Shown piece by piece: positions 11,954 to 16,087 of a DNA stretch of 36,952 nucleotides. The stretch is from Frankia alni (lineage in GTDB: Bacteria; Actinomycetota; Actinomycetes; Frankiales; Frankiaceae): positions 96,938 through 133,889 of the forward strand of contig JAMFSN010000116.1 of assembly GCA_026225295.1 (NCBI GenBank). The letters run 5' to 3'. Each line of letters begins with the position of its first letter. Position 1 is the first letter of the stretch. Below the pieces are notes generated by a model. That model was given only the letters and a program-made list of their open reading frames with translations, was not told the DNA's origin and ran no database searches. Position numbers and translations under genes: made by a program.

Positions 11954-12319
11954 TCAGGCGACCGGCAGGCCGGGCAACAGACGGTCGGCGAGCGCCAGAG
12001 CACCCTCGGGGGTCATCTGACCGCGCGGAACCAGGTGGGCCCGCTCGTCAGAAGTGAGTCCGCCCCAGACGCCGTGTTCCTCCTGGCGGAAGATCGCGGT
12101 GGCCAGACACGGCCGGCGGACCGGGCAGTCGGCACAGATGCGCCGGGCCCGTGCTTCCGCGGCGGCCCGGGCCTTGGTGTTGCGGCCGTCCGGCGGGAAG
12201 AAAGCATCCGGGTCGCCGTCGCGGCAGAGCGACTCCTGCCGCCAATACGCGGGCCAGCCTTCACCGAAGGGCTGCGGCGGAAGATCCCGCCCCGGAAGGA
12301 CGGGTACTCCCGCGCTCAT
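11954..12319 (-). CDS. WhiB-family iron-sulfur transcriptional regulator
   Basis: A 121-aa Wbl protein. The four cluster cysteines are at 32 (LCRDGDPDAFFP), 62 and 65 (ICADC) and 71 (PCLATA), and the GVWGG turn is at 83-87. Wbl proteins bind a [4Fe-4S] cluster and usually act by contacting the sigma factor. There is no AT-hook-like basic tail of the WhiB7 kind. ATG 12319 has a strong ribosome-binding site, GGAGGAG at 12323-12329. That site and the start lie inside the end of an upstream ORF whose TGA overlaps this ATG, so translation is probably coupled. Assignment to a specific Wbl class is not possible from this alone. Confidence 0.93.
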   Translation of the reverse strand: MSAGVPVLPGRDLPPQPFGEGWPAYWRQESLCRDGDPDAFFPPDGRNTKARAAAEARARRICADCPVRRPCLATAIFRQEEHGVWGGLTSDERAHLVPRGQMTPEGALALADRLLPGLPVA

Positions 12320-12899: not shown

Positions 12900-13301
12900 T
12901 CAGTTGGGCTGCTGGTCGCCGTTACCTGTCGGAAGCCCGGCGTCTTTCCAGGCCTGATATCCACCGATGACATCGGTGGCCCGGTGCAGACCGAGCGAGC
13001 GCAGCGCCGCCGCGGCCAGGCTGGAGGTGTAGCCCTCGGAGCACAGCACTATCACCCGCAGGTCATCGCCGGTGGCGATCGGCAGCCGGGCGTCGCTGGT
13101 GGGGTCGAACCGCCACTCCAGCACGTTGCGCTCGACCACCAGGGCGGCCGGCACCGATCCCTCGTCGGCCCGCTGGGCGGCCGGTCGGATGTCGACCAGG
13201 ACCGCCCCGCCCACCACCTCGGCCGCCGCCCGGTCGGGGGCCAGGCGGTCGAGACCGGCCCGGGCCTCGGCCAGCAGTGCGTCGATCCGACTGGTGGTCA
13301 C
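12900..13301 (-). CDS. Rhodanese-like sulfurtransferase
   Basis: A 133-aa single rhodanese domain. The substrate-site Cys is residue 87 in the loop LCSEGYTS; VLVDIRP near 34-40 and VIGGYQAWKDAGLP near the C-terminus are the other family hallmarks. It would carry sulfur as a persulfide. GTG 13301 overlaps the TGA of the cysteine dioxygenase gene by 4 nt (GTGA), so the two are cotranslated; this pairing suggests handling of cysteine-derived sulfur. The actual acceptor is unknown. Confidence 0.9.
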   Translation of the reverse strand: MTTSRIDALLAEARAGLDRLAPDRAAAEVVGGAVLVDIRPAAQRADEGSVPAALVVERNVLEWRFDPTSDARLPIATGDDLRVIVLCSEGYTSSLAAAALRSLGLHRATDVIGGYQAWKDAGLPTGNGDQQPN

Positions 13302-13900
13302 GACACCATCATGGCCCCGGCGGCCACCGCGGGGCCCCGGTCAACGGCCCGGACGAGAGCGTCGGGCCCGGTCGACCGGTCGGGACCAGCCTGTCCGGCG
13401 GACGGCTCCGGAGCCAGGCGCATCGGGAGCCCGGGCGGGGAGTAGGCGTGGATGCTGGTTGCCGGGCCGCCCCCCGCCCCGGAGACCTGGTGGATGTGGT
13501 GGGCGGGGAAACCGAGGGTACGGCCGGTCGGGTGCCAGCGCTGGAAGGTCGGCGACCACTCGGGCGAGTAGCCCTCCTCGGCCAGCGTTCCGTCCACCAC
13601 CGTCATTGCCCCCAGGGCACCGCCGTGGTCGTGGACCGGCGTGCTCTGGCCGGGGGTCCAGCCGATCAGCCACACCTCGACCACGCCGGACAGCACCAGG
13701 CGGGTGTACCAGCGGCCGGTCGGATCGTGGCGGACCAGTGGCCGCCACAGCTCGCGAGCGGTAGCCAGGCGGCTGGTCAGGGCGGTGAGCGCCCCCATGG
13801 GCAGGGTCCGCTGCCCGTCGTCCAGCAGCGCGTCCGGCACCAGTTCGGCCAGCCGCGCGGGAGTCGCGGCGGTCAGGAACGCGGGGTGAAGAAGGGGCAC
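13298..13900 (-). CDS. Cysteine dioxygenase
   Basis: A 200-aa cupin that should oxidise L-cysteine with O2 to cysteine sulfinate using a mononuclear Fe(II). Ligand residues are visible: His90 and His92 (PVHDHGGALGAM) and His137 (HHIHQVSG). SIHAYSPP near 149-156 supplies the His/Tyr of the active site. The Cys of the mammalian Cys-Tyr crosslink is absent, as usual in bacteria. GTG 13900 has GGAGA about 7 nt upstream. It is the first full gene after a Cys-terminated leader peptide and is coupled to the rhodanese gene. The C-terminal 40 residues are Ala/Gly-rich and poorly conserved. Confidence 0.92.
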   Translation of the reverse strand: MPLLHPAFLTAATPARLAELVPDALLDDGQRTLPMGALTALTSRLATARELWRPLVRHDPTGRWYTRLVLSGVVEVWLIGWTPGQSTPVHDHGGALGAMTVVDGTLAEEGYSPEWSPTFQRWHPTGRTLGFPAHHIHQVSGAGGGPATSIHAYSPPGLPMRLAPEPSAGQAGPDRSTGPDALVRAVDRGPAVAAGAMMVS

Positions 13901-13952
13901 GGCGGTCTCCGACGACGATGTCGTGTGCGGGCGGCGCGAGAGCGTGCTCGGA

Positions 13953-14063
13953 CGTGACCGGGGCCCGGCTGGAGGTCGTGCGCGCGGGCGGCTGGGCGCC
14001 CCGCGCCGATGGTCACGTCCGCGTCAACAGGCGCTGGTCACGCCCCGGGTCAGGTCGGTCACG
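13953..14063 (-). promoter_or_regulatory. Putative cysteine-responsive attenuator (three-to-one alternative pairing)
   Basis: On the mRNA (minus) strand CGTGACC occurs three times, at 14063-14057 and 14042-14036 inside the leader ORF and at 14017-14011 just after its stop. The single complementary GGTCACG lies downstream at 13959-13953. The last pair extends to a perfect 10-bp stem, GGACGTGACC with GGTCACGTCC (14020-14011 and 13959-13950), with a 51-nt loop. The three donors compete for one acceptor, so ribosome position on the leader could choose the fold. No U-tract follows, so control of ribosome access or Rho is as likely as intrinsic termination. Confidence 0.55.
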
Positions 14064-14119
14064 CGGTCCGCGTGCAGGTGGACGCCCGTCGAGAGACCCA
14101 CCGGTGAGCCGTCCATCAT
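14024..14119 (-). CDS. 31-aa leader peptide ending in Cys-stop, ahead of the cysteine dioxygenase operon
   Basis: ATG 14119 (or the adjacent ATG 14116) opens a 31-codon ORF that closes at 14024, 123 nt before the cysteine dioxygenase start. The C-terminal part reads RVTDLTRGVTSAC followed by TGA. This matches the pattern of the short leader peptides found before sulfur-metabolism genes in Streptomyces and relatives, which carry a D-L-x-R-x-x-S-A-x-C-like ending. Its position before a cysteine-degrading enzyme fits a cysteine-sensing role. The ribosome-binding site is weak. The peptide is too short for standard gene callers. Confidence 0.65.
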   Translation of the reverse strand: MMDGSPVGLSTGVHLHADRVTDLTRGVTSAC

Positions 14120-14275
14120 CCGCACGCCGCGATGGTAGCGGCTCCCGCCCAGGCTTGTCACCTTAGTCGATCGGGAATGTTCGACAAGGGTGGATTTCGG
14201 TCGGCAATCGGAACGACATCACCGGATGACGAGATCACGGTATCTTTCCAGGACCCTGTCCCGGGAGGTGCCCGC

Positions 14276-16087
14276 GTGGGCCAGCCGACCGGCCTGCCGC
14301 CGGCCGCCCGAACGGCGGATCCGCCGCTTCCCGCGGCGTTCGTCGACCCGCGTCCGGAGGCCGACCGCCGCCCGGGTCCGACCAGCGGCCCGGACGCCGG
14401 GGCCGGCCCGGATGATCTGCTCGACCTGCTGCGACGGTCCGGCGGCGAACACGACTCCCGCTCACCGATCCGCGATCTGCTCGACGCCGTCTCGACCACC
14501 GTCGACGAGGCGGACCTGGCCGTGGTGCTGCGTCAGATCGTCAGCGCCGGCTGCGCATTGGTCGGGGCCGGCCGGGGAGCCCTCGCGGTCGAGGGCCCGG
14601 ACGGCCGGACGGCCCGGTTCGTGACGGTCGGGCTCGACCCCGAAGCCGCCGCCGCGCTGGGTCCACGGGTCACCGACCCCGGGCTCCACCGGATGGAGCA
14701 GCCCGCGCCGGGCTGTCCGACGCCCGGGCGACCCGGGTCCGGTCGGGCGGCGGGCCGGCCGGTCACCGGACGCCCCCTGCCGCCCGGCCATCCGCCGGTC
14801 ACAACCTTCCTGCTCGCCCCGGTCACCGCCCACGGTCGCCCGTCCGGTTCCCTCTACCTGGGGGACAAGCGGGCCGGCGGGCCGTTCACCGCGGACGACG
14901 AGGCAACCGCGCGGGCCCTGGCGGCGATCGCCGCCTTCGCCATCGACAACGTCGCCCGCTACGAGGAGACCCGCCGCCGGCAGGCGTGGTTGGCGGCCGG
15001 CGCCGAGATCACCACGGCGCTGCTGTCGGTCGATTCCCCGGGCGACGCGCTGGCCCTGGTGGCCCGCCGGGCCCGCCAGGTCGTGGGGGCCGACCTGGCC
15101 GCGATCGTGGTGCCGCTCCCCGCCGACCCGGGCACGCTGGTGATCTCCGTCGCCGACGGAACGAGCGCGGACGCGCTGCGCGGGTTGCGGATCCCGGCCG
15201 TCGGATCGCGGTACGCGCAGATCCTGGACACCGGCCGGGCGGCGTTCATCCCGGCCGCCGACGGGCCCGATGCTCCGTTGTTCGGCGGCGCGACCGGCGC
15301 GGTCCGGATCGGTCCGGCGATGGTGCTGCCGTTGGTCGCCGCGGGCCGGTGCGGGGGAGCGCTGGTGGTCGGATCGCACCGCGGCCGGCCCCCGTTCGCC
15401 TCCCTCGACCTGGAGATGGCGGGCGCGTTCGCCGGCCACGCGGCTCTCGCGCTGCACCTGTCGCGGGCCCAGCGGGAACGCGAGCGGCTGGCCGTCTTCG
15501 AGGACCGCGACCGGATCGCCCGTGACCTGCACGACGTCGTCATCCAGCGAGTCTTCGCGACCGGCCTGCAGCTGTCGGCCGTGGTGCGCTCGGTGGACGG
15601 CGAAGCGGCCGGGCGGATCTCCTCCGCCATTGCCGAGCTCGACCGCACGATGGACGACGTCCGGCGGGCGATCTTCTCCTTGAAGACCCAGACCGGCGAC
15701 GGGCCGGGTCTGAGCGAGCAGATCGTCGACATCGCCGCCCGGACCACCGACTGGCTGGGCGTCGCACCCGACGTCCGGCTGGAGGGACCCGTCGACCTGG
15801 GGGTCCCGGAATCCGTCCGGGCCCACCTCATCGCGGCGTTGCGCGAGACCCTGTCCAACATCGCCCGGCACGCCCGGGCGACCCGGATCGGGGTGCTCGT
15901 GCGGGTCACCCACGACCGGGTGCTCATCGAGGTGCGCGACAACGGCTGCGGGCCGGGCGGCGGATCCCGGACCAGCGGACTGGCCAACCTGCGGCGACGG
16001 GCTGCCGATCTCCGCGGGCAGATGGAGTACGGGCCGGGCCTCGACGGGACCGGTACCACGGTCACGTGGTGGGTCCCGATCAGCTGA
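14276..16087 (+). CDS. DevS/DosS-like GAF-domain sensor histidine kinase
   Basis: A 603-aa soluble kinase. GTG 14276 is preceded by GGGAGG at 14263-14268. A Pro/Asp-rich N-terminus leads to two GAF-type domains (about 70-225 and 240-390), then the HisKA_3 dimerisation helix with phospho-acceptor His419 in RDRIARDLHDVVIQRVF. The HATPase domain follows (N-box TLSNIARHARA, G1 box VRDNGCGPG) to the end. This layout and the kinase core match DevS/DosS of mycobacteria, where a GAF-bound heme senses O2, NO and CO. Whether the first GAF has a heme His cannot be told by eye. The response regulator is convergent, not downstream. Confidence 0.88.
   Translation: MGQPTGLPPAARTADPPLPAAFVDPRPEADRRPGPTSGPDAGAGPDDLLDLLRRSGGEHDSRSPIRDLLDAVSTTVDEADLAVVLRQIVSAGCALVGAGRGALAVEGPDGRTARFVTVGLDPEAAAALGPRVTDPGLHRMEQPAPGCPTPGRPGSGRAAGRPVTGRPLPPGHPPVTTFLLAPVTAHGRPSGSLYLGDKRAGGPFTADDEATARALAAIAAFAIDNVARYEETRRRQAWLAAGAEITTALLSVDSPGDALALVARRARQVVGADLAAIVVPLPADPGTLVISVADGTSADALRGLRIPAVGSRYAQILDTGRAAFIPAADGPDAPLFGGATGAVRIGPAMVLPLVAAGRCGGALVVGSHRGRPPFASLDLEMAGAFAGHAALALHLSRAQRERERLAVFEDRDRIARDLHDVVIQRVFATGLQLSAVVRSVDGEAAGRISSAIAELDRTMDDVRRAIFSLKTQTGDGPGLSEQIVDIAARTTDWLGVAPDVRLEGPVDLGVPESVRAHLIAALRETLSNIARHARATRIGVLVRVTHDRVLIEVRDNGCGPGGGSRTSGLANLRRRAADLRGQMEYGPGLDGTGTTVTWWVPIS

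Follow-up and report, generated by a model that had tools for sequence, protein, structure and literature searches.

Is the short ORF that ends in a cysteine codon upstream of a cysteine dioxygenase gene in Frankia alni a regulatory leader, and if so, how would a ribosome translating it set the expression of the enzyme? The locus lies in a 36,952-nt stretch of contig JAMFSN010000116.1, referred to here as the window. The ORF reported in the original prediction is present on the minus strand, reading 31 codons from ATG 14119 to T-S-A-C and a stop codon (14026-14024), and the distance from this stop to GTG 13900 of the dioxygenase gene is 123 nt, as had been stated (Table 1). The identity of the two downstream genes is clear from profile searches. 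The dioxygenase matches CDO_I (PF05995) with 52 bits against a cut-off of 23 (E 8e-14), and its metal-ligand motif, HDH together with SIHAYSPP, aligns to solved cysteine dioxygenases (8qfl and others). Its closest named relatives are from Frankia, Parafrankia, and Pseudofrankia, and we accordingly treat the window as Frankiaceae DNA. The rhodanese gene matches the PF00581 profile with 41 bits. Slightly downstream of the rhodanese gene, an ORF on the minus strand (11954-12319) resembles a WhiB-type iron-sulfur regulator in its cysteine pattern (C..CxxC..C).

Table 1 Features of the leader and the dioxygenase-rhodanese operon (positions in the window).
Feature	Positions	Strand	Remarks
-35 hexamer GTGACA	14156-14161	minus	Consensus scan
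-10 hexamer TACCAT	14132-14137	minus	18-nt spacer to -35; ends 6 nt before GTG start
Leader peptide ORF	14024-14125	minus	GTG start, 33 codons + TGA; product MRMMDGSPVGLSTGVHLHADRVTDLTRGVTSAC; probably leaderless
Conserved core LHxDRVTDLxRxxxxxC	14027-14077	minus	Invariant residues among 22 distinct peptides
Invariant TGT (UGU) Cys codon	14027-14029	minus	In the window adjoins the TGA stop directly
Untranslated spacer, leader to dioxygenase	13901-14023	minus	123 nt; without terminator-like site or second -10
Stem 5' arm GGACGTGACC (third CGTGACC copy)	14011-14020	minus	Present; not conserved, chance-level
Stem 3' arm GGTCACGTCC	13950-13959	minus	Present; not conserved, chance-level
Dioxygenase Shine-Dalgarno GGAG	13907-13910	minus	6 nt 5' of GTG; read from sequence
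Cysteine dioxygenase type I, 200 aa	13298-13900	minus	PF05995 (CDO_I) match
Rhodanese-domain sulfurtransferase, 133 aa	12900-13301	minus	PF00581; start overlaps dioxygenase stop

The promoter of the operon is predicted to lie directly in front of the leader. A consensus scan of 13850-14260 gives a single promoter-like site, whose -35 and -10 hexamers match at 9 of 12 positions, with an expectation of 0.0 from shuffles. Its TACCAT box ends six nucleotides 5' of GTG 14125. Therefore, the leader more likely starts at GTG 14125 than at ATG 14119, which would give a peptide of 33 residues; the location of the ORF stands as originally predicted, and its start codon probably does not. In addition, each of the 26 Frankiaceae loci compared has a TANNNT box that ends 6-7 nt upstream of the start codon of the leader, a match seen at 0.7% of random upstream positions. 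Because the -10 box is so close to the start codon in every locus, the leader mRNA is almost certainly leaderless in Frankiaceae, the transcript start being predicted from promoter spacing. Between the leader and the dioxygenase gene of the window, the same scan detects no promoter-like site; TA dinucleotides are missing from this spacer, which leaves no room for a second TANNNT box. No terminator-like site is found in 13850-14260, and we reject a classical trp-type transcription attenuator on the lack of an intrinsic terminator in this interval. On the plus strand, the longest ORF form of a divergent GAF/histidine kinase gene (ATG 14132) begins inside the leader -10 box; the true start of this gene probably lies downstream.

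To assess conservation, we translate the upstream DNA of the non-identical Frankiaceae dioxygenase loci with enough upstream sequence (n = 26). As the original prediction required, a leader ORF with a Cys codon is found upstream of the dioxygenase gene in 26/26 loci. Every one contains the core LHxDRVTD[L/H]xxxxxxxC, in which the Cys is located nine residues past the second Asp. In an alignment of the 22 distinct leader peptides, residues L, H, D, R, V, T, D, and C are invariant, and the N-terminus and the tail beyond the Cys vary, as does the total length, which is free. The third codon positions of the invariant residues vary among the 26 loci while the peptide remains constant. The window leader and those of most Frankiaceae relatives contain one Cys. 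A search with a leader profile gives strong matches, usually one per genome, in 31 of the 34 other family genomes covered; outside the family, all of its matches are weak. The gene context is equally constant, with the rhodanese gene downstream of the dioxygenase gene in 26/26 loci. The spacer between leader and dioxygenase, in comparison, ranges in length from about 124 nt in the window, the shortest, to 703 nt, and its RNA is richer in C than in G in every locus (mean C-G 0.105 vs 0.030 upstream). The spacers of four Pseudofrankia-type loci carry an inverted repeat, TTCTCGAC...GTCGAGAA, about 170-200 nt past the leader stop, which is possibly an operator, a terminator, or a separate signal. 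Judged from these sequences, the leader peptide very probably controls the dioxygenase operon.

How the control would be exerted is a separate matter. The original prediction proposed a switch in which three CGTGACC segments of the leader mRNA compete for one GGTCACG, the position of the ribosome picking the fold. The copies are present at 14063-14057, 14042-14036, and 14017-14011, with the single GGTCACG at 13959-13953, and the last copy does form a perfect 10-bp stem (GGACGTGACC/GGTCACGTCC), or 11 bp with a flanking C-G pair. However, shuffling the leader with dinucleotides preserved yields a perfect stem of 10 bp or longer in 17% of the sequences and a 7-mer in three copies plus its complement in 5.5%, and the window leader folds slightly worse than its shuffles (z +0.75). 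Nor is the pairing found in relatives. The first CGTGACC corresponds to the codons of the conserved R-V-T; relatives have neither copies 2 and 3 nor the GGTCACG partner, and downstream complements to the DRVTDL codons are not above chance in them; in several, these codons pair inside the ORF instead. Being at chance level in shuffles and not conserved, the alternative-pairing attenuator is rejected, and we consider a switch of this kind very unlikely. The peptide, the gene context, the promoter spacing, and the TGT codon are far beyond chance; the repeats are not.

Other RNA structure is seen in parts of the family. In many Frankia and Parafrankia leaders, the DRVTDL codons pair with the GTC-AGC/ACC codons preceding the Cys codon, and the resulting in-ORF hairpin is more stable than in synonymous recodings (mean z -1.00, SE 0.24; many near -2 to -2.8). 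The window leader lacks this hairpin (synonymous-codon z +0.33). Directly past the leader stop, Frankiaceae sequences show a weak dip in folding z (mean z -0.87, SE 0.17), indicating slightly more structure, which is not seen in the window (z -0.25). RNA alignments made clade by clade give mixed results (z -2.9 to +1.5), and a search of 13200-14400 against Rfam returns no family match at E up to 5.

Ahead of sulfur-assimilation genes, cysteine leaders are known to act in starvation. The original prediction assigned the window leader to peptides of the DLxR...SAxC type that precede sulfur genes, and we find that it belongs with the kind described by the NCBIfam model NF042934 (cis_reg_atten, 'putative leader peptide'), as a divergent subclass. 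NF042934 (curated cut-off 27 bits) matches neither the window leader nor any other Frankiaceae dioxygenase leader tested, even at E values as high as 10; it recognises most of the general leaders tested, as well as a dioxygenase leader of the family labelled Streptomyces-type (37.1 bits). Alignment of the Frankiaceae subclass with the general class by hhalign gives an E value of 1.4e-5 and a probability of 80%. Both are short ORFs upstream of sulfur genes, with a DLxR...C C-terminus of the same spacing and a TGT codon. They differ before the D-L-x-R: of the NF042934 motif H-[VI]-D-L-x-R-x-x-S-A-x-C, the window leader has D-L-x-R and the final Cys but lacks the class-invariant His two residues before the Asp. 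Counted from the second Asp, the subclass has its own invariant residues, H at -6 and DRVT at -4 to -1 (D-4, R-3, V-2, T-1), whereas the general class has H at -2. On sequence comparison, the Frankiaceae dioxygenase leader is thus best described as a divergent subclass of a known actinobacterial leader kind.

The general class is widespread. A DNA pattern for H-x-D-L-x-R-x-x-[S/T/C]-A-x-C, with either Cys codon permitted, matches in 65 of 148 genomes of the class, and the reversed pattern matches almost none. Among the genes that follow are those for sulfite/nitrite reductase, PAPS reductase, luciferase-type monooxygenases, flavin reductase, a PLP-dependent enzyme, transporters, and TauE. The genome from which the window is taken has at least six more cysteine leaders, on six contigs, with targets that include sulfite reductase, transporter genes, and a luciferase-type monooxygenase, and it gives 8 profile matches to NF042934. 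Elsewhere, divergent PAPS-reductase-like and sulfite-reductase-like genes are each preceded by a cysteine leader, the two leaders lying on opposite strands no more than about 200 nt apart.

The mycobacterial polycysteine leaders form a second point of comparison. They are reportedly responsible for cysteine-responsive attenuation, in work attributed to Canestrari et al. 2020 (Mol Microbiol 114:93). PMC13236596 cites Canestrari et al. 2020 on polycysteine leader attenuation. Leaders of the Ms5788A/Ms4527A type (NCBIfam families) resemble the window leader in being leaderless, in having Cys codons near the ORF end with TGT at the aligned position, and in lying upstream of cysteine-metabolism genes; by -10 spacing, from which the transcript start is predicted, all 26 Frankiaceae leaders share the first of these features. 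They differ in having a run of Cys, whereas the window leader has a single Cys and a degradative dioxygenase as its target. The window leader and most of its relatives lack a cluster of two or more Cys codons at the end of the ORF. In mycobacteria, leaderless cysteine-rich uORFs have been detected by ribosome profiling (PMC4633059). Seliverstov et al. 2005 described leaders of biosynthetic cys/cbs operons in Mycobacterium, Propionibacterium, and Bifidobacterium in which Cys codons occur in runs; these leaders are without terminators, and Rho-dependent control was suggested for them (PMC1262725); Frankia and the dioxygenase are not mentioned there.

The codon used for the conserved cysteine is nearly fixed. 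The Cys at the motif end is encoded by TGT in 26/26 Frankiaceae dioxygenase leaders, and the final Cys by TGT in 118 of 119 general leaders (HVD/HID forms, identical sequences removed), these tallies being of distinct sequences rather than independent events. Other two-fold codons of the same leaders serve as an internal control. The remaining Cys codons within the general-leader motifs are 27 TGC vs 3 TGT, and the neighbouring two-fold codons are ordinary (CAC 91 : CAT 28; GAC 88 : GAT 31). In a scan of mixed Ms5788A/NF042934 loci, polycysteine leaders included, the aligned Cys is TGT in 24/24 leader matches; the two TGC cases are unrelated ORFs. As a baseline of codon usage, taken from the window and the loci compared, TGT is used for 2 of the 53 Cys residues encoded by neighbouring Frankia ORFs and for 11 of the 59 encoded by window ORFs. 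The near-invariance of TGT amid TGC usage thus argues that the Cys codon itself is under selection, and decoding of UGU is likely the sensing step. The literature searched contains no earlier report of a UGU rule. In these high-GC genomes generally, TGT nearly always encodes the sensing Cys, and TGC encodes most other Cys residues of the leaders. A different codon is used in uORFC-8-2, located before cysS in Rhodobacterales, which has tandem Cys codons, two stems, and an intrinsic terminator (PMC8632094). It resembles the present leaders in ribosome-mediated attenuation through Cys codons in a uORF, but in these alphaproteobacteria the codons are mostly UGC, in contrast to UGU in the actinobacterial leaders.

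These data also bear on whether the product could be a small protein acting in trans, with operon membership its sole link to the dioxygenase. Selection is indeed largely at the peptide level. The freedom of length and N-terminus, with the C-terminal core alone kept, argues against such a protein, as do the invariant TGT, which would have no protein-level meaning, and the recurrence of a related motif ahead of many unrelated sulfur genes. We regard this explanation as highly improbable.

Dioxygenase leaders are not confined to the Frankiaceae subclass. In the Streptomyces-type family (f18; the label is inferred from gene content and leader sequence), 13/13 dioxygenase genes of one type have a cysteine leader (MTDTCVRLWRRVHMDLVRYAGCVCRPSC), all with TGT. 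Leaders with TGT also precede dioxygenase genes in families f17 (two genomes), f19 (two genomes), and f40 (one genome), and in a single basal genome from the family of the window the dioxygenase gene is preceded by a cysteine leader outside the subclass, again with TGT. We find nothing on dioxygenase leaders in the literature searched.

The Streptomyces-type leaders offer a clue to the sign of the response. At the 13 loci, complementarity to the Shine-Dalgarno sequence of the dioxygenase gene (CAGGACGG) is found in the RNA right after the TGT (CCGTCCTG), and in one diverged leader AGGTCCTG is compensated by a new CAGGACCT adjoining its Shine-Dalgarno sequence. A ribosome waiting at the TGT would, in this model, cover most of the anti-Shine-Dalgarno sequence. 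Because that sequence would lie within the footprint of the paused ribosome, a pause is expected to turn expression on in the Streptomyces-type leaders. In one genome of this type, the leader-dioxygenase spacer carries an uninterrupted run of over 30 C.

No such geometry is seen in Frankiaceae. Near the Cys codon, the pairing of Frankiaceae leaders with their own Shine-Dalgarno sequence is 4.81 bp vs 4.62 bp for swapped controls, and 29 general leaders give 4.62 vs 4.72 bp. In the window, the complementarity between the Shine-Dalgarno sequence and the RNA around the Cys codon is no greater than in swapped controls. Attenuators of the polycysteine type are expected to have an RNA structure that hides the downstream ribosome-binding site until a paused ribosome opens it; the predicted fold of the window leader buries the dioxygenase Shine-Dalgarno sequence, but this fold has z +0.75, and leaders pair as well with swapped Shine-Dalgarno sequences as with their own. 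Found in the Streptomyces-type dioxygenase leaders only, an anti-Shine-Dalgarno sequence is rejected as the general coupling. For Frankiaceae, the same sign, with a pause turning expression on, is moderately favoured by analogy. Under the usual starvation-pause reading, this is the opposite of the sign in the original prediction, in which the dioxygenase is on only when cysteine is plentiful.

Taken together, we consider the following mechanism probable, as read from the sequences. The promoter at 14161-14132 would transcribe the dioxygenase-rhodanese operon into a leaderless mRNA that opens with a short regulatory ORF. On reaching the single UGU, the ribosome would carry the nascent chain LHxDRVTDLxRxxxxx, and it would pause there when cysteinyl-tRNA is limiting, since UGU is a Cys codon that is read by wobble and seldom used, and the nascent chain probably makes the step more sensitive. 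The expression of the downstream genes would then depend on whether the ribosome is paused or released. In Frankiaceae, candidate routes for transmitting the pause are masking of the ribosome-binding site and Rho-dependent termination in the untranslated spacer; the Rho route is possible given the excess of C over G in the spacer. This mechanism builds on peptide conservation, the leaderless promoter, the invariant UGU, the dioxygenase/rhodanese linkage, and kinship to sulfur-assimilation leaders, which are established computationally; from them we infer that ribosomes translate the leader and pause at UGU, and that the outcome depends on cysteine. Several points count against it. A pause caused by scarcity of Cys-tRNA would induce the dioxygenase in shortage, an odd arrangement metabolically for an enzyme that degrades cysteine. 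No conserved RNA switch is found between leader and dioxygenase, the spacer length is variable, and the subclass escapes NF042934. Moreover, the conservation of the peptide could reflect nascent-chain arrest in response to a signal other than Cys-tRNA charging.

This last point leads to the alternative of an arrest peptide. In Escherichia coli, tnaC encodes a conserved nascent peptide with a single critical residue before a degradative operon. By a similar logic, abundant cysteine or another sulfur signal would arrest the ribosome at or after the Cys, block Rho termination, and induce the dioxygenase. Such an arrest through LHxDRVTD on abundant cysteine would give the sign that fits a degradative gene, and it comes nearest to the logic of the original prediction. 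The leader has a single Cys rather than a run and, unlike sulfur-assimilation leaders, a long invariant stretch before it; the spacers have C over G in 26/26 loci and there is no intrinsic terminator. With tnaC it has in common the single critical residue, the degradative operon, and possibly Rho dependence, but not sequence, and arrest by a free amino acid is a feature of tnaC. The C-terminal motif and the UGU rule, however, recur in the leaders of genes for biosynthesis and uptake, which are expected to sense starvation; the selection of UGU points to codon decoding as the sensing step, and the geometry of the Streptomyces-type dioxygenase leaders makes a pause the ON state. We therefore judge an arrest peptide unlikely, and the pause at UGU under limiting cysteinyl-tRNA is the reading we prefer. 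A further, rather doubtful scheme would be a single, very large actinobacterial class whose sensor is one UGU, read while a conserved nascent chain occupies the ribosome tunnel, and in which the LHxDRVTD of the Frankiaceae branch reverses the sign, so that degradation is on when cysteine is plentiful and assimilation is on when it is scarce.

Cysteine leaders of distinct sequence forms thus stand before cysteine dioxygenase genes in at least five actinobacterial families. The combination of DLxR-x5-TGT with a leaderless start offers a simple search rule for leaders that NF042934 misses. The near-invariant UGU in genomes that use UGC is a clue that decoding of a wobble codon, aided by the nascent chain, may be the sensing step. 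For these bacteria, the leaders raise the question of whether one ribosomal sensor serves both the synthesis and the destruction of cysteine, and with what sign.
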